Below are positions 38,001-63,901 of a stretch of DNA of 64,000 bases, piece after piece. Numbering within the stretch: position 1 is the first letter of the stretch; every line of letters starts with the position of its first letter. Origin of the DNA: Haliclona indistincta (taxonomy: Eukaryota > Porifera > Demospongiae > Haplosclerida > Chalinidae); the NCBI GenBank assembly GCA_964017065.1, contig OZ024790.1:6308922-6372921 (forward strand), written 5' to 3'. The notes below the pieces were generated by a model. That model saw nothing but the letters and a program-made list of their open reading frames with translations. It was not told the origin of the DNA and did not search any database. A program made the position numbers and the translations under genes.

Positions 38001-40332
38001 CATAACTCATGAATAATATTAACTCATGGATAATAGTGATGGATCATGAATAATTCATATATTTGTCTGCAGGTGACTGGGAGTCTACTTGATATTCTAG
38101 AGCAGCATTCTGAGCTGGTGTGTAGTGATGGTCTTCTGTGCATTGCTGAGCTATGTCTTGCTCTTGTGGCTCGAGTGATACCACTGTTGCCGAGAATACT
38201 AGCCTGCTTCATGACCTACTGTGGACAAGTTACTGATGGGTAGGACTCATTCACTCACCCACTCACTCACTCACTTACTCACCCACTCACTTACTCACCC
38301 AATCACACACACATGAACTCGCCTACTCTATCTCTCTCTCTCTCCTAGCAAGGAGCAGTTACACATCAGTGCTCTATCATCACTGTGTGTAGTTGTAGAA
38401 ACTCTTCCTCAATTCCTCAGCTCTACTCTTCCAGATATGGTGGTCAAGGTTTGCTTTGTTGATACACATATGTAAACTAACAGCTGCATAATATTTATTT
38501 AAAAATGTTAATTATTCTATCTATACAGAGCTGTCATAGTCATCTTGTCAATAATAACTGTACACAGCTGACACAGCAAGCTAGCAAGCTAAGGTATGCC
38601 TTTCTCTCTACACCATGTGTTCAAAATGGTGAAATGTTGTACAGGAAGTTGTTAGCTAATCAGATCCCAGCCCGGGTGTTCCTTCCCGCCATAGTGAAAT
38701 GCTACAATGCACTGTGGGACAGCAGCAAGGTAGTTGTTCTATTAATAGATCAGTTTATTACCATATATGGTGTTTTCAGTCATCTGTGATGGCATTGGTT
38801 GATATGTTGTCTGTGAGCATTGAGCGACTGACGAGGGAGGAAGTGAGGTCACATTCCCAAATTATGGTGGACACATTCCTGGTCATGCTTGATTACCGGT
38901 CTGTGAAACAAGGAGTGAGTGACTACGCGGTAACGTGTATCATGATGTCATGGTACACTACAGGTTGAGCTCACTAGTATTCTAGAAGTGGAGAAGAGTG
39001 TTATTAATTCACTTGCGTGTCTTGTTATAAAGCTATCAGAAGCTTCATTTAGACCAATATTTCTCAAGGTCAGCCTCTTAAAACAAACACACACGCACAC
39101 ACGCACACGCACACCAAACACATGCAGCATACTTGTATTATCTTAAACTCCACCCTCTTTTTGCAGTTGCTGGACTGGTCTACTCACTTGGACTCGCACC
39201 GCAAGCGAGCAATCACATTCTACCACCTCACTAACATGTGAGTACGTGTAGTGCCATAATCTGCTAATGCACTGCTCACTCTTTACAGCATTGCTGAGAA
39301 ATTGAAGAGCTTGTTTCTACTCTTCGCTGGTCACCTGGTCCAGAATGCTGCTGAGTTACTGGATGCTTGTAATGATAGCAAACAAGGTTTGACACGAGGC
39401 TTGACCTTTCTCGCTCATTTTCCTTGTTCTCCAGACGAACTCTACTTTGAGGATCAAATTGATCACAGCGACGAAGAGAGAACAGAAATGACGACTCTGC
39501 TGCTACGATTCATACTGGACACACTCCACAAGTGTCTTCTTTATGATAAAGGAAGTTTCTTGACAAAGAACAACTTCAAAACACTCTTGAAGCCTCTTGT
39601 TGACCAGGTACTTTGACATGGTGTACGTTGCTTGACAGCACATCTCCTTCTTGTTCGTCAGGTCAGCAATCATCATGGAGGCGATGCTTGTTATCAGGAT
39701 AGAGTGAGTCATCAGTTAGTGGCGTGTGTGTCACAGCTAGCCGTAGCTGCTGGTAAAGACACTCTCTGGAAGCAACTCAACAATGAGCTACTACTGATAA
39801 CCAGACACTCTAAACCAGAGGTAGACAAGAAATAGTATAGCTCTGCAGTGGAACCAGTCATCCTTGACAACCACAATCAGTACCCTGAATGAAGAATTGT
39901 CCTTATTTCAGGAGTTATCACATAAAAATGCATAATTTGGGATCACATGCAGTGTTTATTATTTCAGGGATGTTTATATGGTCAAGGAAATGGTTCCACT
40001 GTATTGCATGAACACAGAGTGCATGCAGATTCAACTATCTTAGTGCAGAATTTAAGTATTGTTGTGTTGTGTTGCGTTTAGGTAAAGATTGCAGTGTTGA
40101 AGATCGTTCGTGAGATATACTCCAAGCTTGGTGAGGAGTTTACTGTGCTTCTTCCCGAGACCATTCCGTTTCTTGCTGAGCTGATGGAAGGTGAGTGGTG
40201 ATACACCGCAGCTCTCTAGTAACCATTGGTTCTCTTGTTGCAGATGAGTCACTAGATGTAGAGAAGCAAGCTCACACTGTTATAGTACTGATCGAAGAGA
40301 TTGTGGGAGAGTCTGTACAACAATACTTCTAA
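35069..40332 (+). CDS. HEATR1 / UTP10 C-terminal half, 20 exons, 5' incomplete
   Basis: HEAT-repeat protein of the small-subunit processome, acting in the nucleolus in pre-rRNA transcription and processing. Exons: 35069-35287, 35457-35566, 35654-35772, 36056-36184, 36254-36463, 36681-36813, 36872-37067, 37254-37527, 37592-37735, 38073-38239, 38349-38448, 38529-38593, 38645-38729, 38780-38914, 38964-39068, 39167-39237, 39289-39607, 39662-39820, 40082-40190, 40244-40332; all phases agree and the stop is TAA. The roughly 980 residues include [20 protein letters not shown] and [16 protein letters not shown], recognisable from animal HEATR1. HEATR1 proteins are about 2,100 residues, so the N-terminal half is absent. 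The first exon has a proper acceptor (ctatccag), but no donor exon is visible upstream before the divergent TRIM gene. Either upstream exons lie elsewhere or this is a 5'-truncated copy. Intact frames argue against a dead gene. Confidence 0.88.
35300..35420. repeat. CT-rich low-complexity tract in HEATR1 intron 1
   Basis: Repeated ctctctctc/ccctccctc runs directly after the donor at 35288. Similar tracts lie at 35625-35650 and 37150-37250, each near an acceptor, where they may serve as the pyrimidine tract. Confidence 0.8.
35853..35995. repeat. (CATC)n microsatellite
   Basis: About 27 units of catc, flanked by caccc/cactc variants, in HEATR1 intron 3 (35773-36055). Confidence 0.95.
39846..40001. 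mobile_element. 156-bp MITE in HEATR1 intron 18
   Basis: Inverted ends cagtggaaccagtcatcctt and ggaaatggttccactg. Copies sit at the same intron position in the HEATR1 relics (about 45122-45294, 46665-46808, 52003-52171), so the insertion predates the segmental duplication. Confidence 0.75.
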
Positions 40333-40449
40333 CTAATAATAATTATTATAGGAAATGTATTGAACTGCTTATGAAACATCTATGAATAATTATAATTAAT
40401 TTGATATTATCATTATCGTGGATCCGCTCTAATCCAGTAGTTCCCTGAA

Positions 40450-43400
40450 ATGGAGGACAACACAAAAGCTGAGAAAAGTAAGTTCATGTTAGTCGGTACA
40501 CGTGCGCCGCAGAAAGTGAATTGCGGTACATTTATTTCTATGATTTCCAAGAGTTTGTGAGGAAGAATACACTACGTGGAGATCTGTACCATGACGGACG
40601 GATGTGTCCTGTGTATTGTATATCCATTGTATTAGTAAGTATAATACAATCATGCATGCGAGCTGCACTAAACTGGGAAACACTATCTACAGGCGCCTCT
40701 ACCTAGTCTACCAGTGATAATAACTGGGATATGGGCATTAGTAAGATACTGTACACTCTCTAGTACACTGTCACACTCTGTTATAATTCAAGGTCCAGTG
40801 CACAATGTTCTTTCCCATCACAACTCAAGCCAGCATCTCTGTGATCATAATATCAGTCCTGGTCATCATCGTGGGTGTGCTCATGATTGCTGTAGTTGTT
40901 GGGTTTGTACTATTTGTGCACTACGAGAGAGCATCAAAACACGGACAGTATTATATAGGATACTATTCCTTAAGCATATTAAAACTAGGAATGGTAAGTA
41001 CATGTATACATAAACATTAATTGCAATGATAATTATTGTTGCTTATAAAATTTAGCCTATTGGTATTCTACTCGTTCTTGATGTGATATTACTATCTCTT
41101 GGTATTGCAGCAGGTGCTCTGATTCCTAGTGTGAGTGATTATACATCATGTTTGTATAATCATAGACAGCATAGTGATGGGCAATTCTAGATCTGGCATT
41201 TTAGAATATCAGCTCGTTCAATCCTTGTTGTAATCATACATCAGTCATGAATATAATTATTAATGGGTGGCTTGTAGCTCACCCACTTTCGTAATTGCAA
41301 CAAAATGTACTTTTCTCAAATGCTTTCTCATTTGAACTCTATCACTTTGTGAGTTCTGCCCCATACACATGCACATTAGCTTTCAGATATGAGAGAAATT
41401 TCTTGTTTATAAAAACACTTCAGTACAAAGAAAATTTTGCCACAGTGACCCCTACAAGAAGTAAAGTTAGCTATTAATTTGTTGTAAATTTTTACCTCAG
41501 TTACTGACCATGTAATGGCTTACTCTCATCAACAAAGCACTATTAAGTCAGAAGTTAGAAAATGAACGCATTTTGGACAGCCTCCTCGTGGTCTCTTCAT
41601 GAAAGTTACCACAATGAACTGACATGTCATAGTCTGAGCTTCATTGGTATTGGATATCATATCCTGCATGCTTGGCTCAATAAAAGTGATTTGCACGTCT
41701 TCATGGCCTTCTGTCTCTCTCGCAGCACTGTTTTTTCATAAAAATCTCTTAACCTCTTGCTAGATAATGACACTGGTGTACTTAGCTTGTTGGAAGTGTA
41801 AATCTTTACTTGCATGCACTTGCCTAACTCTAAAATGATATAATAATTTAGCCACCAATAGTATAACCGTTATATTCATTGTATTATAATAGCTGTCAGA
41901 GAGTATTGGAACTAGTGCCAACATTTCATTATTCACCATCCACGACTCTCAAGGAATCAGGGATGCTTGGGATGCTGCTCAAAACACAGTGAGCTAAAAT
42001 GTTTAATCTTCATTACATTTTGATGTATAATTATAGCTAAAATGTTGTGGAGCAATGAATTTCAGTGATTATGAACAAGTTTTCAACAACTTCTCTGTAC
42101 TAGTCTCTTGCTGTGACACCACCAACCCACTGGCCAATGAGATAACATGTCCAGATATTGTCATGGACACTAACGTGACCACTGAGCTAATATACACTGA
42201 GGTACTGCATCATTGCAGTGTTATAACAATATCCACCTCCTCTTATCTTACTGCAGGGCTGTGTTCCTCAGTTAGTGTCTTACTTTCATTATATTCACAG
42301 TGTTGTTGCTGGAGTTAGTATCTTTGCAGGAGCAATACCGGTATATTGTATAGTAATGCTGTATTTATTTCCCTTCTTTGATTAAGATAATTGGAGGATG
42401 GTATATATTTTCTATGATTGGTAATGATAATAATTTTCATCTCATGCCGCGATGTCAATTTCTATAATGCTTTATAAAGGATTTAATATAAACTATAAAG
42501 CACTGAGGAAGAAATCGGACATCAGTGATTGTACATTGAAAACTTTTGGATTCAATTTGGTTAGTTTCTTAGTTAGCCCTCGCATTGTATTATAGTATTA
42601 AACATTGATGCAGGTATTTAGTTTTGGCTTCATTATTGTTGCAGTGCAGGCGTTGGTGAGCAATGCTATAAAAATTATTATGCATCAATCTAATGGCTAC
42701 ACCATAGCTATACTTTGTAAATCTCTCTGACTCTCTATATTCATGCAGGTACGAAATGTGTTATTTTATTATCCTATCACTGCACCAGCTAATACTTTGA
42801 TAATAATATCAGTTCTGCTCATCATTGCTGGTGGACTCATGATTTGTGCATATACTCTCCTGATATATTCAAACACAACATTTTCTGAAAACTGTGGTTG
42901 CTATATTTTGTTCTGTATCAGATGTGTTACTGTACGTTTTTATAATACCAGAATAATTCCAGGATGACTTTTCTTCACACACTATGCATGCAGGTCCTTT
43001 TCATGATCATATTCCCACTTGTTGTTGGTGGTGTAGCAGCTGGTACGAGTGGACTGGTGAGTATCATGATTGACAGACTGTATATTTTGCTTGTTCTGTT
43101 GTCTTCAGACCAGTATTGAGCTAAAAAGTACATTACACAAATATCTTGATAGTCAGCCAGTTCAAGAGACTTGGAACGAGTTACAGAAAAATGTCAGAAA
43201 AATTAATCTGCATGTAACTATAATAATGACAGTGTTTATAATGCAGATGGAGTGTTGTGGAGTGGATCACTTCACTGATTATGAAACAGTGTTTAGTAAT
43301 TTCTCTGTACCAGTGTCATGCTGTAACACCACTAATCCACTAGCCAGTGAGTGTCCTGATATTGTGAGGAATTCTCAGCAGATGATCAACCAGACTGGTC

Positions 43401-43670
43401 TATTATACTCTGAAGTCAGTGCCTGCAGTGTGCAGTCCATCTTGTCACTAACTCATTATCTGTTACTATAGGGTTGTGTCTCTCATTTGGAGTCATTCTT
43501 CAACAACATGTTCACTGTTATTGCTGTAGTCACTATTATTATTGCAAGCATACAGGTAAATATGTGCATGCCTATAAATGTACTATAGTCACAATATCCT
43601 GTCTTTTTGTCAGCTCCTCGCAATGCTAGTTTGGTCATGGTATCTCCTCAATTCCACAGTGGATCTATAA
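40450..43670 (+). CDS. Twin tetraspanin T1: two fused tetraspanin modules (524 aa, 17 exons)
   Basis: Exons: 40450-40477, 40552-40634, 40693-40740, 40793-40993, 41056-41130, 41893-41988, 42037-42201, 42257-42340, 42387-42420, 42480-42559, 42614-42655, 42749-42931, 42994-43056, 43109-43192, 43247-43414, 43472-43555, 43614-43670. Every junction keeps frame; most introns are phase 0. Module 1 has helices in CISIVLAPLPSL/PVIITGIWAL, ISVIIISVLVIIVGVLMI, ILLVLDVILLSLGIAAGAL and after its loop; module 2 repeats the same exon order from exon 10 on. Each large extracellular loop has CCG, SCC, one more Cys and GC: LEL1 KCCGAMNFSDYE, LEL2 ECCGVDHFTDYE with PVSCC. Known tetraspanins have four helices and one loop and organise membrane microdomains; this would have eight and two. 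No start codon, promoter or stop separates the modules. It starts 117 bp after the HEATR1 stop. An alternative exon 2 acceptor at 40513 is also in frame. Confidence 0.82.
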
Positions 43671-44526: not shown

Positions 44527-45624
44527 AGCAAGGAGCAGTTATGCACCTATCAATGTTAAGCCCCACTACCCTCCTCCCGGGCATGCGGGTGGGGTTTTGA
44601 TAGGGGCTTTGAACGGAAGCTGAGCCCAATGGGTGGAGATTTTAAACAGTAAAACCACTGAAACGGGTGGGAGTTGACACAACAATGGGGAGTTGACACA
44701 ACAGCTTGCCCTGGGGGTGGGGAAATTGATTTTTGGTAAGATCAAAACCCCACCATGCCCCCACCCATGCCCGGGAGGGGGTAGTGGGGCTTAACATTGA
44801 TAGGTGCATTACACATCAGTGCTCGGTCATCACTGTGTATCTAAACTTCACTACATGTGTAGTCATTGAGCATCTCTTTAGTGGATCAGGTATACACTTG
44901 AAATGAGGTTTATTCTTGACAGCTGCATGCATAGCCCCTTCTTGTTCATCAGGTCAGCAATCATCATGGAGGTGATCAGGATAGAGTGAGTCATCAGTTA
45001 GTGGCGTGTGTGTCACAGCTAGCTGTAGCTGCTGGTAAAGACACTCTCTGGAAGCAACTCAACAATGAGATACTACTGACAACCAGACACTCAAAACCAG
45101 AGTTAGCTATTGACAAAAAGTAGCACTGTAGTGAAACCTCTCAGATACAGTCATCCTTGACACCAATACAATCAGTGCCCTGAATAATGAGGTGTCCTGA
45201 TTTCAGGAGTTATTACATGATTTAAGATGACATGCAGTGTTTCGTTTTATTACACGGTCAGGGGTATCCAGATAGTCAAGAAAGAGTTCAACTGTATTGC
45301 ATGAACACAGAGTGCATGCAGATTCAACTAATCTAGTGTGGAATTTAAGTTGCTTAAAAATTAATAATAGGTAAAGATTGCAGTGTTGAAGATAGTTTGT
45401 GAAATATATTCGATGAGTTTTGCTCCTTCCCGAGACAATCCCATTTCTTGCTGAGCTGATGGAAGGTGAGTAGTGATACACTAAACCAACTCACTACTAA
45501 CCAGCATACATGTGGTTCTCTTGTTGCAGATAAGTCACTGGATGTTGAGAAACAAGCTCACGTGCACTCTGTTATAGTACTGATTGAAGAAATTGTGGGA
45601 GCGTCTGTACAACAATACTTATGA
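44527..45624 (+). pseudogene. HEATR1 3'-end relic H1
   Basis: Contains remnants of HEATR1 exon 11 (agcaaggagcagtta, then cacatcagtgctc after an inserted element), exon 18 (about 44954-45103, with a 9-base deletion and a lost donor), exon 19 (about 45372-45466, with a deletion that breaks frame) and exon 20 (about 45531-45624). The intron MITE is also present. It cannot encode HEATR1. Confidence 0.8.
44542..44808. mobile_element. 267-bp palindromic MITE with TTA target duplication
   Basis: Inverted ends tgcacctatcaatgttaagc / reverse complement, flanked by TTA at 44539-44541 and 44809-44811. The empty site cagttacacatcag is preserved in HEATR1 (about 38357) and in relic H3 (about 51669). A 3-bp TTA target suggests PIF/Harbinger (inference). 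Confidence 0.85.
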
Positions 45625-45784
45625 CTCATTGATTACATTAAGTTTTGACGTGCGTATACATTACGAATTAATAATTATTGAGTTATCATCTTATCTGAAT
45701 CGTAAAATTAGTATTTTCGTAAATTAAAGAAAACACACCAAGTGAAAAAATTAAGAAATATTTGCTGTTGCAATGTTTTGCAAA

Positions 45785-46309: not shown

Positions 46310-47138
46310 AATCTACTCAGTTACACATCCGTGCTTTATCGTCACTGTGTGTGCATGTGGTTGTAGAAGCACTATTCTAGTAAACAACACCACGTCACGA
46401 AGGTGTACAATAGGCTTCACTATATGTATACTTTTGAAGCTACACTTATGGATTAGGATATACACTTGAAGTAATATTGACAGCTGTATGTATAGCGCCT
46501 TCTTGTTTATCAGGTTATGGATGTTATCAGGATAGAGTTAGTGGCGTGTGTGTCACAGCTAGCTGTAGCTGCTGGTAAAGACACTCTCTGGAAGCAACTC
46601 AACAACGAGCTACTACTGACAACCAGAAACTCTAAACCAGAGGTAGACAAGAAGTATAGCACTGCAGTGGAAACAGTCATCCTTGACAACCACAAGCAGT
46701 GCTCTGAATAAAGAGTTGTCCTGATTTCAGGAGTTATTAGACTACATAAAAATGCATAATTTGGGATCACATGCAGTGTTTTATATGGTCAAGGAAATGG
46801 TTCCACTGTATTGCATGAACACAGAGTGCATTCAGATTCAACTAACTTAGTGTGGAATTTAAGTGTTGTTGTGTTGTGTTTAGGTATATAAAGATTGCAG
46901 TGTTGAAGATCGTTCGTGAGATATACTCCGAGCTTGGTGAGGAGTTTACTGTGCTTCTTCCCGAGACCATTCCGTTTCTAGCTGAGCTGATGGAAGGTGA
47001 GTGGTGATACACTGCAGCTCACTAGTAACCATTGGTTCTCTTGTTGCAGATGAGTCACTGGATGTAGAGAAGCAAGCTCACTCTGTCATAGTACTGATCG
47101 AAGAGATTGTGGGAGAGTCTGTACAACAATACTTTTAA
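46310..47138 (+). pseudogene. HEATR1 3'-end relic H2
   Basis: Remnants of exon 11 (about 46313-46372), exon 18 (46515-46642, internal deletion), the intron MITE (46665-46808), exon 19 (46891-46996, with an extra tata near the start) and exon 20 (47050-47138, frame open to TAA). It lies 131 bp before T2, the same arrangement as HEATR1 to T1. Confidence 0.8.
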
Positions 47139-47269: not shown

Positions 47270-50200
47270 ATGAAGGACAACACAAAAGCTGAGAAAAGTA
47301 AGTTCATGTTAGTCGGTACACGTGCTCCGCGGAAAGTGAATATTTCTATGATTTCCAAGGGTTTCTGAGGGACAACACACTACGTGGAGATCTGTACCAT
47401 GACATATATATGTGGCCTGTGTATTGTATATCCATTGTATTAGTAAGTATAATACAATCATGCATTCAAGCTGTACTGAACTGGGAAACACTATCTACAG
47501 GCGCCTCTACCTAGTCTACCAGTGATAATAACTGGGATATGGGCATTAGTAAGATACTGTACACTCTCTAGTACACTGTCACACTCTGTTATAATTCAAG
47601 GTCCAGTGCACAATGTTCTTTCCCATCACAACTCAAGCCAGCATCTCTGTGATCACAATATCAGTCCTGGTCATCATCGTGGGTCTACTCATGATTGCTG
47701 TTCTTGTTGGGTTTGTACTTTTTGTGCGCTATGAGAGAGCATCAAAACACAGACAGTATTATGTAGGACGACATCACTTAAGCTTATTAAAACTAGGAAT
47801 GGTAAGCACACATAAACATTAATTGGAATGTTAATTATTGTTGCTTATAATATTATTTATTTAGCCTATTGCTATTCTATTCGTTCTTGATGGGGTCTTA
47901 CTATCTCTTGGTATTGCAGCAGGTGCTCTGATCCCTAGTGTGAGTGACTATACACCATGTTCGGTATAAGTATACGATAGCATAGTGATGGGTAACTCTA
48001 GATCTGGCATTTTAGCATATCAGCGCGTGCAATCCTTGTTGTAATCATTCATCAGTCATGAATATAATTATTAATGGGTCGCTTGTAGCTCACCCACTTT
48101 CGTAATTGCAACACGGCCAGAAGATGAACAGACAGCATCATGCTGTAGTTTTACAATAAGAATATCTATTTTTCCAGTGACAAAATGCACTTTTCTCAAA
48201 TGCTTTCTCATTTGAATGCTATCACTTTGAGAGTTTTGTCCCATACACATGCATATTAGCTTTCAGATACGAGAGAAATTTCTTGATTATAAGAACACTT
48301 CAGTACAGAGAAATGTTGCCACAGTGACCCCTACAAGAATAAAGTTAGCTATTAATTTATTATAAATTTTTACCTCTTGCTAGATAATGACACTGGTGTA
48401 CTTAGCTTGTTGGAAGTGTACTGAAATCTTCACTTGCATGCACTTGCCTAACTCTAAAATGGCATAGTAATTTAGCCACCAATAGTATAACCATTATACT
48501 TCATTGTATTATAATAGCTGTCAGAGAGTATTGGAACTAGTGCCAACATTTCATTATTCACCATCCACGACTCTCAAGGAGCCAGGAATGCTTGGGATGC
48601 TGCTCAAAACACAGTTAGTAAGATAAAGATATGTTAGTTTAATCTTTATTACATTTTGATGTATAATTATAGCTAAGATGTTGTGGAGCAATGAATTTCA
48701 GTGATTATGAACAAGTTTTCAACAACTTCTCTGTACCAGTCTCTTGCTGTGACACCACCAACCCACTGGTCAATGAGACAACATGTCCAGATATTGTCAT
48801 GGACACTAACATGACCACTGAGCTAATATACACTGAGGTACTGCATCATTGCAGTGTTATAAACAATATCCACCTCCTCTTATCTTACTGCAGGGCTGTG
48901 TTCCTCAGTTAGTGTCTTACTTTCATTATATTCACAGTGTTGTTGCTGGAGTTAGTATCTTTGCAGGAGCAATACCGGTATACTGTATAGCAATGCTGTA
49001 TTTATTTCCCCTTCTTTGATTAATTGTGTGTAGATAATTGGAGGATGGTATATATTCTCTATGATTGGTAATGATAATAATTTTCATCTCATGCATGTCA
49101 ATTTCTATAATGCATTATAAAGGTTTTAATATAAATTGTAAAAGACTGTCCGGAGAACGTTGTACATTGATAACTTTTGGATTCAATTTGGTTAGTTTCT
49201 TAGTTAGCCCTCGCATTGTATTATAGTATTAAACATTGATACAGGTATTTAGTTTTGGCTTCATTATTGTTGCAGTGCAGGCGTTGGTGAGCAATGCAAC
49301 AATACATGCAATTATTGAGCAATGCAATTATATTATGCATCAATCTAATGGCTACACCATAGCTATACTTTGTATATCTCTCTGACTCTCTATATTCATG
49401 CAGGTACGAGATGTGTTATATTATTATCCTATCACTGCACCAGCTAATACTAATGTGATAATAATATCAGTTCTGCTCATCATTGCTGGTGGACTCATGA
49501 TTGGTGCATATACCATCCTGATATATTCATCAGTAAGATTATTTGACACCTGGTTTTGTTCTGGTTCGGAAGGTTTTGTTCTGGTTCGGAAGGTTTTGTT
49601 CTGTATCGGATGTGTTACTGTACGTTTATATAATTCCAGGATGTCTTTACTTCACACACTATGCATGCAGGTCTTTTTTATGATCATATTCTCACTTGTT
49701 GTTGGTGGTGTAGCAGCTGGTATGAGTGGACCGGTGAGTATCATGATTGACACACTGTATATTTTGCTTGTTCTGTTGTCTACAGACCAGTATTGAGCTA
49801 GAAAGTACATTACATCAATATCTTGATAATCAACCAGTTCAAGAGACTTGGAACGAGTTACAGAAAAATGTCTGAAAATTAATCTGTATGTAACTATGAC
49901 AGTGTTTATCATTCAGATGGAGTGTTGTGGAGTGGATCACTTCACTGATTATGAAACAGTGTTTAGTAATTTCTCTGTACCAGTGTCATGCTGTAACACC
50001 ACTAATCCACTAGCCAGTGAATGTCCTGATATTGTGAGGAATTCTCAGCAGATGATCAACCAAACTGGTCTAATATACTCTGAAGTCAGTGCCTGCAGTG
50101 TGCGGTCCATCTTGTCACTAACTTATTATCTGTTACTATAGGGTTGTGTGTCTCATTTGGAGTCATTCTTCAACAACATGTTCACTGTTATTGTTGCAGT

Positions 50201-50348
50201 CACTATTACTATAGCAAGCATACAAGTAAATATGCATGGATGCCTATAAATGTACTATAGTCACAATATCCTGTCTTTTTGTCAGCTCCTTGCAATGCTA
50301 ATTTGGTTGTGGTATATCATCACTTCCATACTGGATCTATATAACTAA
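47270..50348 (+). CDS. Twin tetraspanin T2 (533 aa, 17 exons)
   Basis: Exons: 47270-47297, 47360-47442, 47501-47548, 47601-47801, 47865-47939, 48518-48613, 48673-48837, 48894-48977, 49034-49067, 49123-49190, 49245-49286, 49404-49619, 49671-49733, 49786-49869, 49917-50084, 50142-50225, 50286-50348. The frame is continuous through both modules, as in T1. LEL1 has RCCGAMNFSDYE and PVSCC; LEL2 has ECCGVDHFTDYE and PVSCC. Exon 12 is 11 codons longer than in T1 because a 20-bp segment (ggttttgttctggttcggaa) is tandemly repeated. The C terminus gains two residues (YN). The exon 2 acceptor used in T1's longer model is destroyed here (ccgcgg), which supports the downstream acceptor ccaag. Expected at the plasma or an internal membrane; no partner can be inferred. 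Confidence 0.8.
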
Positions 50349-51657: not shown

Positions 51658-52503
51658 AGCAAGGAGCAGTTACACATCAGTGCTCCATCATCACTGTGTA
51701 CCTCACCACCCCATACCATCTCCAACTACACCATAAACGTCATGTATAGTCATTGGGCATCTGTTTAGTGGATCAGGTATACACTTGAAGTGAGGTTTAT
51801 TTGCATGCATAGTGTCTTCTTGTTCATCAGGTCAGCAATCATCATGGAGGTGATCGGGATAGAGTGAGTCATCAGTTAGTGGCGTGTGTGTCACAGCTAG
51901 CTGTAGCTGCTGGTAAAGACACTCTCTGGAAGCAACTCAACAATGAGCTATACTGACAACCAGACACTCTAAACCAGAGGTAGCTATTGACAAAAAGTAG
52001 CACTGCAGTGAAACCTCTCAGATACAGTCATCCTTGACACCTACAATCAGTGCCCTGAATAAAGAGGTGTCCTGATTTCAGGAGTTATTACATAATTTGG
52101 AATGACATGCAGTGTTACGTTTTATTACACGGTCAGGGGTATCCAGATAGTCAAGAAAGAGTTCAACTGTATTGCATGAACACAGAGTGCATGCAGATTC
52201 AACTAAACTATAGTGCGGAATTTAAGTTGCTTAAAAATTAATAATAGGTAAAGATTGCAGTGTTGAAGATAGTTTGTGAAATATATATTCGATGAGTTTT
52301 GCTCCTTCCCGAGACAATCCCATTTCTTGCTGAGCTGATGGAAGGTGAGTAGTCATACACTAAACCAACTCATTACTAACCAGCATACATGTGGTTCTCT
52401 TGTTGCAGATAAGTCACTGGATGTTGAGAAACAAGCTCACGTGCACTCTGTTATAGTACTGATTGAAGAAATTGTGGGAGCGTCTGTACAACAATACTTA
52501 TGA
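51658..52503 (+). pseudogene. HEATR1 3'-end relic H3
   Basis: Close sister of H1: the exon 11 remnant is uninterrupted (gcaaggagcagttacacatc), exon 18 is at about 51833-51980 with a small deletion, the intron MITE follows, then frame-broken exon 19 and exon 20 ending at about 52503. Confidence 0.8.
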
Positions 52504-52669
52504 CTCATTGATTACATTAAGTTTTGACGTGCGTATACATTACGAATTAATAATTATTGAGTTATCATCTTATCTGAATCGTAAAATTAGTATTTTCGTA
52601 AATTAAGGAAAACACACCAAGTGAAAAAATTAAGAAATATTTGCTGTTGGAATGTTTTGCAAATGATTT

Positions 52670-53149: not shown

Positions 53150-53890
53150 GACACTCGACTCATTGTCTATCCTATCTTTTACTCACCCACTCACCCAATC
53201 TACTCAGTTACACATCCGTGCTTCATCGTCACTGTGTGTGCATGTGGTTGTAGAAGCACTATTATACTCTCCAAGATAATTATTATGATAGAGTATGATT
53301 TGTTGATATTCTAGTAAATAACACCAGCCTCACCAGGTGTACCATAGGCTTCACTACATGTATACTTTTGAAGCCACACTTATAGTGGATCAGGTACATA
53401 CACTTGAAGTATTATTGACAGCTGTATGTATAGCGCCTTCTTGTTTATCAGGTTATGGATGTTATCAGAGTTAGAGTTAGTGGCGTGTGTGTCACAGCTA
53501 GCTGTTGCTGCTGGTAAAGACACTCTCTCAACAATGAGTTACTACTGACAACCAGTCATTCAAAACCAGAGGTAAACAGAGACAGCCGGACTACATCGCA
53601 GAGAGCAGATTTATTTAATGCAGAAAAATTGATGTTTATGTACATTGTATTTAGGTAGTCGAATTATAAAAGTTTCAGTGTAAAGTTGAAGATAGTTCGT
53701 GAAACATGCTCCATACTTGCTGAGGAGTTTGGGTTCTTCCTGAGCTAGACCATACCATTTCTTGCTAAGCTGTGGAGAGTGAGTAGTGTATCAGCTCAGT
53801 ACTGACCACTAGTTCTCTTCTTGATTGAGGTTCAACAAGCTAGCTCACTCTGTTGAGTGAGTCTGTATACAACAATGTTTAATGTTTACT
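53150..53890 (+). pseudogene. HEATR1 3'-end relic H4
   Basis: Most decayed copy, sister of H2: an exon 11-like segment near 53200, exon 18-like at about 53455-53573 with deletions, exon 19-like at about 53665-53780, and only a trace of exon 20. It precedes T3 as H2 precedes T2. Confidence 0.65.
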
Positions 53891-57632: not shown

Positions 57633-58940
57633 AGAAAAATAATACTTGAATATCATTAATTTATTATGTTATTCTTGGATACAGGCAGCACTACCTAGTC
57701 TACCAATGATAACTGGGATATGGGCATTAGTAAGATACCTGTATACACTCTCTAGTACACTGTCACACTGTTATAATTCAAGGTCCAGTGCACAACGTTC
57801 TTTCCTATCACAACTCAAGCCAGCATCTCTGTGATCATAATATCAGTCCTGGTCATCATCATGGGTGTGCTCATGGTTGCTATAGTTGTTGGGATTGGAC
57901 TATTTGTGCAGTATGAGAGAGCAGCGAAATCTAACATAGGCCAAGACAGACATAGTATCATACAGCTAGCATTGGTATTCAACATGTATGGCCTTGGCAT
58001 GCTTATTTATTCATTTCTGTATAGCCTATTACTATTCTACTCGTTCTTGATGGGGTCTTACTATCTCTTGGTATTGCAGCAGGTGCTCTGATCCCTAGTG
58101 TGAGTAATGACATCATATACTGTGTTTGTCAGGCATTGTATTATAATAGCTGTCAGAGAGTATTGGAACTAGTGCCAACATTTCATTATTCACCATCCAC
58201 GACTCTCAAGTAGCCAGAGATGCTTGGGATGTTGCTCAAAGCACAGTAAATTATCACGAGGGTTTTGCTAAAATTAATGTGTTCACTATAGTTAAGATGT
58301 TGTGGAGCAGCGAATTTCGGTGATTATGAACAAGTTTTCAACAACATCTCTGTACCAGTCTCTTGCTGTGACACCACCAACCCACTGGTCAATGAGACAA
58401 CATGTCCAGATATTGTCATGGACACTAACGTGACCACTGAGCTAATATACACTGAGGTACTGCATCATTGCAGTGTTATAACAATATCCACCTCCTCTTA
58501 TCTTACTGCAGGGCTGTGTTCCTCAGTTAGTGTCTTACTTTCGTTATATTCACAGTGTTGTTGCTGGAGTTAGTATCATTATAGGAGGAATACCGGTAAT
58601 ATATTTAGTATATTAGTTGTTATGCCTTTAGCTGTGCATATAATTTTTTTATTACCACAGGTTATTGGAGGAATGATTGTATTTTCTTTCGGTAAGTACT
58701 AAATAATAATAATTTTATTTGTGTGCACCTGATTTAAACAGGCAATGTTATTGCTGTATTCCTGAATTTTAACACAAGAATCAAGAAATACTTATTAACT
58801 ACCTCTGCACTTATTTTGGTTGGTGAACTTTAAACCACTTTATTCCATTGTGGACCATCTAAATCAATGTAGATATTTGGTATCGCTTATGTAATTGTTG
58901 GAGTATGGGCATTGGTAAGAATTTAGTGTCTATATACCGT

Positions 58941-59240
58941 CAGGAGCGCATATAAACAAGGGAGCATGTAACTCTGAACACTACCCCATATAACGGCGAA
59001 ATCCTAATGGCGGACTTGCTATTTTAGTTACTTCCATATAAAGTATAAATGTGACGTTTGCGGATGTAATAACTAGTACACGCCCGTTATTAATAATATA
59101 CCGGGTGGAGGCGCGGTTGAAATTATAGACCTTATATGGATTATAGTTCTTATATGGAAACTATTATTTTTAGAACAGCAGCCATGTTAGGATTTCGCCG
59201 TTTACAGAGTTACATGCTCCCTTGTTTATATGCGCTCCTG
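58941..59240. mobile_element. 300-bp hAT-like MITE in T3 intron 11
   Basis: Inverted ends caggagcgcatataaacaag / reverse complement, about 40 bp long, flanked by the direct repeat ataccgt (58934-58940 and 59241-59247). A 7-8 bp target duplication and a CAG start suggest hAT (inference). It lies between exons 11 and 12 of T3 and is absent from T1 and T2. Confidence 0.8.
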
Positions 59241-60248
59241 ATACCGTACACACTATGTTAGTGTTAGTCACACACATTTTTCACAGGTACAAGATGTGTT
59301 ATTTTACTATTCTATCACTGCACCAGCTAATACTAATGTGTTGATAGTATCAGTTCTGCTCATCATTGCTGGTGGACTCATGATTGGTGTTGGTATTTGC
59401 CAGATAGTAACAACCGCAAAGATCATCAAAGACAATCATGATATAACTAAACATGACAGATGCAAATACCTCTACTGTGTTGAATGTGTACGTTATAATG
59501 GTTAATACAATCATTGGTTTACTTGATATTGTACAGTGGTTTGCTGTTCCGTGTATTCCATTCTTGATCATACTAGCACTTGTTGTTGGTAGTGTAGCAG
59601 CTGGTATGAGTGGATCGGTGAGTGTGTTGAGCCGGTATATGCACTGCTAACATGCATGGTTGATCTATACCAATACCAGACCAATATAGAGCTAAGCAGT
59701 ACATTACACAATTATCTTGATAACCAGACTATACAAGAAACTTGGAATAATATACAGGAAAATGTCAGTTAGACTAATTAGCTACTATTATTTATAGTGA
59801 TAAATTATTACGCTTTTATTTTACGATGCAGATGGAGTGTTGTGGAGTGGATCACTTCACTGATTATGAAACAGTGTTTAGTAATTTCTCTGTACCTGTG
59901 TCATGCTGTAACACCACTAATCCACTAGCCAGTGAATGTCCTGATATTGTGAGGAATTCTCAGTAGATGATCAACCAAGCTGGTCTAATATACTCTGAAG
60001 TCAGCTAGTGCTTGCAGTGTGTGGTCCATCTATTATCATTACTACAGGGTTGTGAGTCTCATTTGGAGTCATTCTTCAACAACATGTTCACTGTTATTGC
60101 TGCAGTCACTATTACCATTGCAGGCTTACAGGTATTTGCATCCACTACATGTACAGTCAGGAACTATCATTTCATACTTTCTAAAATTCAGATTGCTGCA
60201 GCTATGATTTGGGGTTGGGGTTTAACCATTGCTATGATCAGACTATAG

Positions 60249-61359: not shown

Positions 61360-62337
61360 TTAGGAACTAAGCTGTGCATTGTTAATACATCAGTATCTTG
61401 ATGATCAGACAGATTTGACCTGGAATGATTCGCAGAAAAATTTATTTGCGAGGCTGTTGTCAGTTTATATGTAATTATTTTACAATGCAGATGAAGAAAC
61501 AGCCAGCATCCCTGTGATCATGATATCAGACCTGGTTGCTAATTGCTTCCTAATTGCTTGGGTATGTACTACTAGTCCAACTCGAGAAACCATCAAAGCC
61601 CAATCCGCTTGGATGTGATGCTGATTTTAAGGATTAGTGTATAAAGATTATTCTATAGTATTTTGTAACGGTGTAGCTATAAAATACAGCGCTGGCACAC
61701 TATCTCTATAGCCTATAGTCAACCTTATCATTTTAGCTTGATGGAGTCTAGCAGCTGGTATATATGAGTGGATCGGTGAGTGTGTAGAGTACATTATATT
61801 CATGTGAGTGATTTAGTGCTCTTATGTTAAAAAACTAGATGATACATTGCACAGATATCTTGATGACCAAACTTTTTAGGAGTTTTGGAATTGCTAAACA
61901 ATACTATAATTATTAATACCTCATCTAGATGGGATGCTGTGGATCACTTCACTGATTATGAAACAGTGTTTAGTAATTTCTCTGTACCTGTGTCATGCTG
62001 TAACTCCACTAATCCACTAGCCAGTGAATGTCCTGATATTGTGAGGAATTCTCAGGAGATGATCAACCAAACTGGTCTAATATACTCTGAAGTCAGTGCC
62101 TGCAGTGTGCTGTCCATCTTGTCACTAACTCATTATCTGTTACTATAGGGTTGTGTGTCTCATTTGGAGTCATTCTTCAACAACATGTTCACTGTTATTG
62201 CTGCAGTCACTATTGCTATAGCAAGCTTACAAGTAAATATGCATGCGTACTATAGTCACATTATCTTGTCTCTTTGTCAGCTCCTTACAATGCTATTTTG
62301 GTTATGGTATATCATCAATTCCATAGTGGATCTATAA
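61360..62337 (+). pseudogene. Tetraspanin relic T4
   Basis: Scattered exon remnants in order: exon 14-like (about 61370-61440), exon 4-like (ccagcatccctgtgatcatg at about 61504), exon 13-like (about 61740-61775), and exon 14-like again with a stop (about 61840-61895). Exons 15 (from 61929), 16 (62149-62232) and 17 (62281-62337, ending TAA) are better preserved. In exon 15, five bases after CCG are missing, shifting the frame. It is not functional as a tetraspanin. Confidence 0.75.
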
Positions 62338-62845: not shown

Positions 62846-63901
62846 TCATGGTCTCCTTCGAGAAGATGATCCTGAGGCAGGTGATGGGATCAGAGAGGAT
62901 GAGTATGAGCTGGCAGGTGATGAGGGACCATACTCAGGAGTCACCTGATGAGAGAGAGAAGATACCATGAAGAGAGAGAGGGAGGGGAGAGGGAGGGAGA
63001 GAGGGAGGGAGGGGAGAGAGAGAGAGGGAGGGAGGGGAGAGAGAGAGAGGGAGGGAGGGGAGAGAGAGAGAGGGAGGGAGAGAGAGAGAGAGGGAGAGAG
63101 ACAGGGAGGGAGGGAGAGGCATCACTCACAGGACCACTGTCCTCATTATCTGACTCCATTATCATGGGGACTCTCTCGTGCTTCTTGGGGCGACTTTTAC
63201 GAGAATGACGCGACTATGAAATCACAATAGAGAAGGAAGCTAGTTTGAGCAAAACCAACCAGACATACCTTGGCTTTACTGCTTCTCTGCTGCCGAGTTG
63301 ATGAGACTGTACGTAGCGAGCAGAACAGAGTTAAATAAACTATTGTGACGGCTAGTACATTCATAACAAAATGAATCGCTTCACACAATCAATTAATTAT
63401 ACTTCAAAATGACATATTATTCATGCACCAATGGTTATTTAAATCGTAGTACTATCGAAATAATTATTATAACCAAAAGCTAAACTGCTAATACTGTAGA
63501 ACTGGAAATTTTCGCGTATCCAAATTTTGTTCTATCAAACTTTCGGTGCATCTAATTTTTGTCATTAGATTGGATGCGCAAATAGTGCACATTGATTAAA
63601 GCAATGTGCGTAAAATTTTCGAGTATTTAATTTTCGTCGCAAGGACAAACGCCGAAAATATTGACGCCGAAAATTTCCAGATTTACGGTAATACGAATAG
63701 CACACTCACCATCAGAAGTATCTGATAAATAACCTTCACCCTAATAACAACAGGAATGATGAACACAACGCAATCTGAAGCAGCTTCACTCACCTCTCCA
63801 GCTTGTTCATCATCACTCGCACCAAAGTCGTAAGCACCCGATTCAATCTCTGCTCTTGCTGAAAGAAACCCTTTCTCCAACACAAAAGAATCGGAGTAGA
63901 T
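62846..63901 (-). CDS. Unrecognised Ser/acidic-rich protein, C-terminal exons, 5' incomplete
   Basis: Five minus-strand exons chain in frame: 63794-63901, 63710-63740, 63269-63306, 63130-63213, 62846-62944 (stop TGA at 62846-62848), all with GT-AG introns. The encoded tail of about 110 residues starts IYSDSFVLEKGFLSARAEIE, runs through an acidic stretch (GASDDEQAGEGEGYLSDTSD), a basic stretch (RHSRKSRPKKHER) and a serine-rich end (SSSLIPSPASGSSSRRRP). Such composition suggests a disordered nuclear tail. I do not recognise the family; the rest of the gene lies beyond the right edge. Confidence 0.65.
62950..63116. repeat. (GAGAGGGAGG)n purine tract
   Basis: Purine-rich degenerate repeat in the last intron of the minus-strand gene, where it provides the pyrimidine tract on the transcribed strand. 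Long open frames on both strands here are low-complexity artefacts. Confidence 0.9.
63492..63690. mobile_element. MITE in an intron of the minus-strand gene
   Basis: About 199 bp with inverted ends tactgtagaactggaaattt and aaatttccagatttacggta and several internal tttcg/cgaaa motifs. It lies entirely inside the intron between exons 63269-63306 and 63710-63740. Confidence 0.6.

Follow-up and report, generated by a model that had tools for sequence, protein, structure and literature searches.

A gene family of Haliclona indistincta that probably encodes eight-helix tandem tetraspanins made of two unlike modules

The stretch of DNA analysed here, referred to as the window, comprises 64,000 nucleotides (C8:6308922-6372921) of a 144 Mb genome in 46 contigs. 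It contains a twin tetraspanin gene, copy A, together with two further copies and a fragment. These features are given below with their exons and with the evidence on which each line is based.

40450..43670, + strand: twin tetraspanin gene, copy A; 17 exons, 524 aa, open exon model with two PF00335 stretches
40450..40477, + strand: exon 1, copy A; start codon and phase-1 donor (exon model)
40552..40634, + strand: exon 2, copy A; N-tail and start of TM1, acceptor shared with copy B (exon model)
40693..40740, + strand: exon 3, copy A; TM1 (exon model, hydropathy)
40793..40993, + strand: exon 4, copy A; small loop and TM2 (exon model, hydropathy)
41056..41130, + strand: exon 5, copy A; TM3 (exon model, hydropathy)
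41893..41988, + strand: exon 6, copy A; first part of large loop 1 (exon model)
42037..42201, + strand: exon 7, copy A; large loop 1 with CCG and SCC (exon model, hydropathy)
42257..42340, + strand: exon 8, copy A; GC and TM4 (exon model, hydropathy)
42387..42420, + strand: exon 9, copy A; end of TM4 and phase-1 donor, with the same donor phase in 20/20 tabulated loci (exon model)
42421..42479, + strand: joining intron, copy A; 59 nt (sequence letters, junction table, splice-site scoring)
42480..42559, + strand: exon 10, copy A; inter-module linker and start of TM5 (exon model, junction table)
42614..42655, + strand: exon 11, copy A; TM5 (exon model, hydropathy)
42749..42931, + strand: exon 12, copy A; small loop 2 and TM6 (exon model)
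42994..43056, + strand: exon 13, copy A; TM7 (exon model)
43109..43192, + strand: exon 14, copy A; first part of large loop 2 (exon model)
43247..43414, + strand: exon 15, copy A; large loop 2 with CCG and SCC (exon model)
43472..43555, + strand: exon 16, copy A; GC and TM8 (exon model)
43614..43670, + strand: exon 17, copy A; stop codon (exon model)
47270..50348, + strand: twin copy B; same 17 exons, 533 aa, open (exon model, spliced aligner)
57685..60248, + strand: twin copy C; exons 3-17 in frame, with a TAG at 59964-59966 in exon 15
61939..62336, + strand: copy D fragment; module-2 end alone, like exons 15-17

All introns of copy A are GT-AG, and its exons join in frame into 524 residues followed by a stop codon, as the preliminary description of this locus had stated. 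The parallel that it drew between exons 2-9 and exons 10-17 also holds, the two series having identical order and phases. The exon lengths are 83, 48, 201, 75, 96, 165, 84 and 34 nt in the first half and 80, 42, 183, 63, 84, 168, 84 and 57 nt in the second. Exon 12 of copy B (49533-49592) is 33 nt longer and includes a short direct repeat, and the aligner spliced part of it out. Exons 1-2 of copy C were not found.

The tail exons of a BP28CT-domain gene, which we take to be of the HEATR1/UTP10 type, are located at 39170-40333 and are repeated near 44929-45629, 46522-47137, 51816-52634 and 53475-53823. As these tail exons recur alongside the twin copies, the duplicated unit carried the 3' end of its neighbour. 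Between copies A and B, an inverted repeat at 44527-44823, with 54-nt arms that are 81% complementary and 189 nt apart, looks like a short mobile element. Another, at 58940-59241 within intron 11 of copy C, has 42-nt arms that are 95% complementary and separated by 218 nt; it has the appearance of a recently inserted element. A long, purine-rich GGGAGGGAGAGA tract occupies 62940-63120. Elsewhere in the assembly, contig G000:C46 is mitochondrial: it carries COX1, with two internal TGA, and an atp9-like frame, a content in keeping with a sponge.

Two stretches of copy A match the Pfam family PF00335 (113 bits), as do two stretches of copy B (110.6 bits), and the halves of copy A scored singly reach 52 and 73 bits, for a cut-off of 32.1. 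Hydropathy gives exactly eight hydrophobic segments in copy A, and each half contains one CCG (residues 180 and 425) and one SCC (residues 201 and 446), in agreement with the two sets of four helices and the two cysteine loops first proposed. The GC pairs at residues 233-234 and 479-480 are invariant across a seven-row alignment. Eight segments are also observed in copy B and in five of seven other models, with 11 in L043 and 9 in L050 at the same cut-off. In L052 and L054, CCG is seen in module 2 alone in one model set, and other alignments add module 1. Glycosylation motifs are present in both large loops of copy A. The four helices expected of a tetraspanin are found in each module, not in the whole twin protein. 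The chain would run from module 1 (TM1-4) through a short cytosolic linker to module 2 (TM5-8), with both large loops probably outside.

The two halves are related, as had been noted, with 34-38% identity when module 1 and module 2 of copy A are aligned. Across seven diverse twins, the best-kept exons are those carrying the large-loop cysteines (62% and 71% identical in pairwise comparison); the large-loop exons as a whole lie at 55-71% and TM4 at 56%. The linker is the least kept part, with 24% identity and 52% gapped positions, and exons 12 and 13 are variable too, with 36% identity each. The linkers of L043 to L047 and L051 contain several cysteines, which could be acylated.

The junction between the halves was tabulated at 20 loci (17 kept loci of the genome plus copies A, B and C), its boundaries being picked by hand and eye with the phase as a guide. 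Exon 9 comprises 31-37 nt and ends in a phase-1 GT donor at 20/20 loci. Exon 10 comprises 38-143 nt and closes to phase 0, with an open joined frame, at all 20, and exon 11 measures 42 or 45 nt throughout. The linker diverges while the donor phase of exon 9 and the frame of exon 10 recur. In a less biased test, reading back from the end of exon 10, the coding frame is the longest open frame at 19/20 loci; the lone exception is L050. For L054, a later alignment favoured a longer exon 10 (83 nt), which is still in phase. The splice sites of 19 joining introns (L051, with an intron of over 400 nt, was left out of the scoring) rank at the 92nd background percentile for donors and at the 80th for acceptors, which is similar to the 86th percentile of both donors and acceptors in 279 other introns of the family. 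Some junction acceptors are weak, that of L042 ranking at the 44th percentile.

The joining intron of copy A measures 59 nt (42421-42479), close to the 60 bp estimated previously, and its length is 46-98 nt at 18/20 tabulated loci. This leaves little space for a terminator and a promoter, so that separate promoters and terminators for the two halves fit badly. The sequence therefore favours a single transcription unit in which exons 9 and 10 would be spliced to give a single-chain tandem tetraspanin. It had been stated that no ATG, stop or spacer separates the two halves. This is correct for the spliced exons but not for the joining intron, which contains a TAA at 42465-42467 in frame with exon 9 and an ATG at 42467-42469 in frame with exon 10, overlapping as TAATG. 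With such a stop and restart, retained-intron forms are possible, and two of them have to be considered.

If the intron were always kept, the gene would consist of two overlapping cistrons, module 1 terminating at the TAA at 42465 and module 2 restarting at the ATG at 42467 by termination-reinitiation. The TAATG, in frame on both sides in copy A, supports this reading, and a contiguous in-frame ATG ahead of exon 10 is also present in copy B, L047, L048 and L051. The other 15 of the 20 loci lack it, however, and in copy C the reading hits a TAA just ahead of exon 10. GT and AG are kept at 20/20 loci, and the introns of copies A and B (59 and 55 nt) differ by 4 nt. We consider two cistrons highly improbable.

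Alternatively, both forms could be made: splicing would yield the twin, retention would give a tetraspanin of module 1 alone that ends in a short new tail, and intron 9 would act as a switch. Reading on from exon 9 leads to a stop at all 20 loci, with tails of about 2-70 residues, and single-module proteins of the twin family do exist. A stop would, however, be expected by chance in most introns of such length and composition, so that 20 stops in 20 loci are weak evidence. A switch of this kind is conceivable, although we regard it as unlikely.

The twin architecture is not restricted to the window. The twin protein gives at least 118 exon-level matches across the genome, 82 of 219 candidates having been scored. 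Twenty genomic stretches were fetched and modelled with a splice-aware aligner written for the purpose; the exons of copy B were recovered blind, save exon 12, which was split in two. In total, 22 twin loci were modelled, namely 17 kept loci, copies A, B and C, and two copies within the fetched stretches. The kept loci score 928-1699, against an opposite-strand background of 154-221 where reported (cut at 150); L040 (score 1084) has no recognisable module-1 start. Three loci were left out of the junction table: L053 (score 415, 2 stops, 4 frameshifts), L057 (391, degraded) and L058, which has one module with a stop and lacks a clear second one. On visual inspection L014 contains sequence resembling exons 9-11, and its module-2 score is 145, compared with 41-53 in the other loci tried; we regard it as a decayed twin and left it out of the count.

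As the fused layout is repeated across a gene family, a one-off accident or an error of the gene model is unlikely. Nothing was found in favour of a collapsed or chimeric assembly of adjacent single genes, which has a negligible probability in our view, since the same layout occurs at 22 loci on C2, C4, C6, C8, C9 and C10, with modules that differ by up to 58-60%. These are not 22 independent events, because close copies are found among them (L040/L041, L039/L042, L043 to L045, L046/L047 and A/B). A second L044 copy (L044 6101-8791) is identical to the first over exons 9-11 (316/316 bases) and adds little at the junction. Its module 1 is like that of L045 (L045 1411 onward) and its exons 9-11 are those of the first L044 copy. 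Such a mosaic points to gene conversion or unequal crossing-over within the array. The genome also contains single-module relatives. In the six that were checked, TM4 runs to the stop within one exon, and the 0.7-1.5 kb searched downstream gives module-2 scores of 41-49; the models of three (L012, L020 and L036) show apparent frameshifts.

The history of the two modules was examined with a 56-row tree, which included 10 of 18 single-module proteins from ENA contigs and five of the six genome singles (L036 was omitted); module 1 of L040 was omitted and that of L049 was taken from a different model set. In it, the 20 module-2 rows fall together as a single clade (100/100), and the module-1 subgroups mirror the module-2 subgroups. 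The distances within module 1 and within module 2 are correlated, with a Mantel r of 0.921 for 19 loci and 0.877 for 12 representatives (0/9999 permutations each). The single module-2 clade, the mirrored subgroups and the correlated distances indicate that both modules of the twin were inherited together, and we propose that the multigene family arose from a twin ancestor and was spread by tandem and dispersed duplication.

The module-1 rows do not form one clade in the best tree, where L056 and L052/L054/L055 group outside. The five genome singles fall within a module-1 group (99/94) and thus sit within the module-1 lineage; module 1 as a clade without them is rejected by the AU test (p 0.013). 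The ENA singles are placed with module 2 (97/99). The AU test rejects neither a clade of module 1 together with the singles (p 0.417) nor a clade of every row from this genome (p 0.227). The origin of the twin is not settled, the tree being compatible both with an internal duplication and with the fusion of two genes that were already different.

If the tandem tetraspanin copies were a decaying array, and the joined frame an artefact of gene modelling, the damage in copies C and D and the stops or frameshifts in several dispersed copies would be accounted for. In about half of the twin copies, the first L044 copy among them, the models contain stops or apparent frameshifts, although some of these may be modelling faults in variable exons. 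In the comparison of copies A and B, dN/dS is 1.16 (0.62-2.63) in module 1 and 0.83 (0.50-1.53) in module 2, which also fits decay; being near 1 in recent pairs, these ratios do not demonstrate recent constraint. Frameshifted models were skipped in this analysis, which removed 6/13 pairs for module 1 and 5/13 for module 2. By contrast, 9 of 20 models are open over their modelled part (A, B, L043, L045, L047, L050, L052, L054 and L056, of which L047 and L056 are without a modelled start exon), as are L042 with its junction exons inserted and the second L044 copy. Older pairs (L048-L050, L052-L055 and L054-L055) give module-2 dN/dS values of 0.33-0.56, and the value between the two modules of copy A is 0.38. 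Together with the exon 10 frame, open at every tabulated locus, and with the co-divergence of the modules, this makes decay a very doubtful explanation. We regard one fused gene, encoding an eight-helix tandem tetraspanin protein, as very probable from the sequence.

Tetraspanins are known as four-helix, one-loop proteins. Each twin module conforms to PF00335, with its four hydrophobic segments, small and large loops, CCG/SCC/GC cysteines and score above the Pfam cut-off. The sponge twin differs from the family in that it holds two unlike modules in one chain via a short linker. Profile matches were obtained to the solved TSPAN15, TSPAN7, CD53 and peripherin-2. Among worked cases, PRPH2-ROM1 comes closest: there two different tetraspanins act as a 1:1 pair, in which each partner is a separate four-helix bundle and chain-chain contacts are named at the dimer interface (PMC9645710). 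The same text describes the pair as non-covalent and formed from two proteins, with disulfides that join dimers into oligomers (PMC9645710). The twin pair would instead be fixed by its chain.

A search of a database of 5.8 billion proteins returned 18 single-module proteins and one jellyfish twin among the matches scored, and a profile of seven twins returned 25 single-module proteins (18 of them recognised by sequence, the remainder by length and alignment) and the same jellyfish twin. A length-gated search gave the jellyfish protein, P0019, and one EukProt protein, P0027. These searches scored roughly 8000 candidates that share most words, so that rarer twins may be missed. Among viral contigs, 41 pattern matches included 0 relatives.

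The jellyfish protein (Rhopilema esculentum LOC135690892, P0019, 484 aa) and P0027 (744 aa) are both predicted proteins with two PF00335 stretches. In contrast to the sponge twins, both halves of P0019 fall into one group (100/100), which indicates a separate origin. The tetraspanin sequence of P0027 follows an unrelated start and is nearly that of P0019 (97% identity in the alignment), so that the two are probably one gene annotated twice; they represent one predicted gene and not a family. The singles from ENA contigs (P0001-P0018 and P0020-P0026) are 32-47% identical to the twin, P0018 being the lowest, and the 18 examined by sequence share its large-loop motif. They differ in having 282-335 aa, the length of one module, and the ten in the tree form their own clade (98/99). 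Fold prediction with AF2 gave a pLDDT of 41.7 for P0019 with one other row and of 63.7 for P0002 with 24 relatives, the latter with 0 PDB matches at E<=0.001.

The preliminary description knew of no described family of this kind. No twin tetraspanin family was found among the matches listed in the open-licence literature, and to that extent the statement stands, but public databases do contain the predicted two-domain protein P0019. The search for proteins with two Tetraspanin domains that it had suggested was productive in this genome, with 22 twin loci, and yielded singles and the jellyfish twin of separate origin elsewhere. Its view of a covalent dimer that bypasses homodimer assembly is retained in part. 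The fused eight-helix gene, and a family with a conserved junction, agree with it; the homodimer does not, the modules being only 34-38% identical. Such a degree of identity points to a fixed pair of two different modules, and in our reading the twins are covalent hetero-tandem tetraspanins whose family is lineage-specific and expanding.

Whether the chain serves as a fixed scaffold, holding a 1:1 pair of different modules in the manner of a tetraspanin scaffold, is in our view an evenly balanced question. In such a scaffold, the conserved large loops would probably form the contact surface between the modules, and the fast-changing, often cysteine-bearing linker might be a cytosolic docking or acylation site. 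A more far-reaching proposal is that of a rapidly diversifying hetero-tandem family whose joining intron lets each gene produce either an eight-helix twin or a four-helix single form, and which could serve variable cell-surface recognition or adhesion. It is suggested by the tandem arrays, the many loci, the dN/dS near 1 in recent copies, and the variable linker and small loops around a conserved large-loop core, and we put it forward as a speculation that is unlikely to be correct.

Tetraspanins are regarded as units of four helices that select their partners by lateral assembly. A family that locks two unlike units in one chain would offer a direct handle on whether tetraspanins work as dimers and on which faces touch, and these natural twins would be comparable in use to engineered tandem dimers. 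If the joining intron is sometimes retained, single and paired function could be tested within the same gene. The twins also illustrate how a gene-family architecture can be fixed, and afterwards multiplied, by fusion or duplication.
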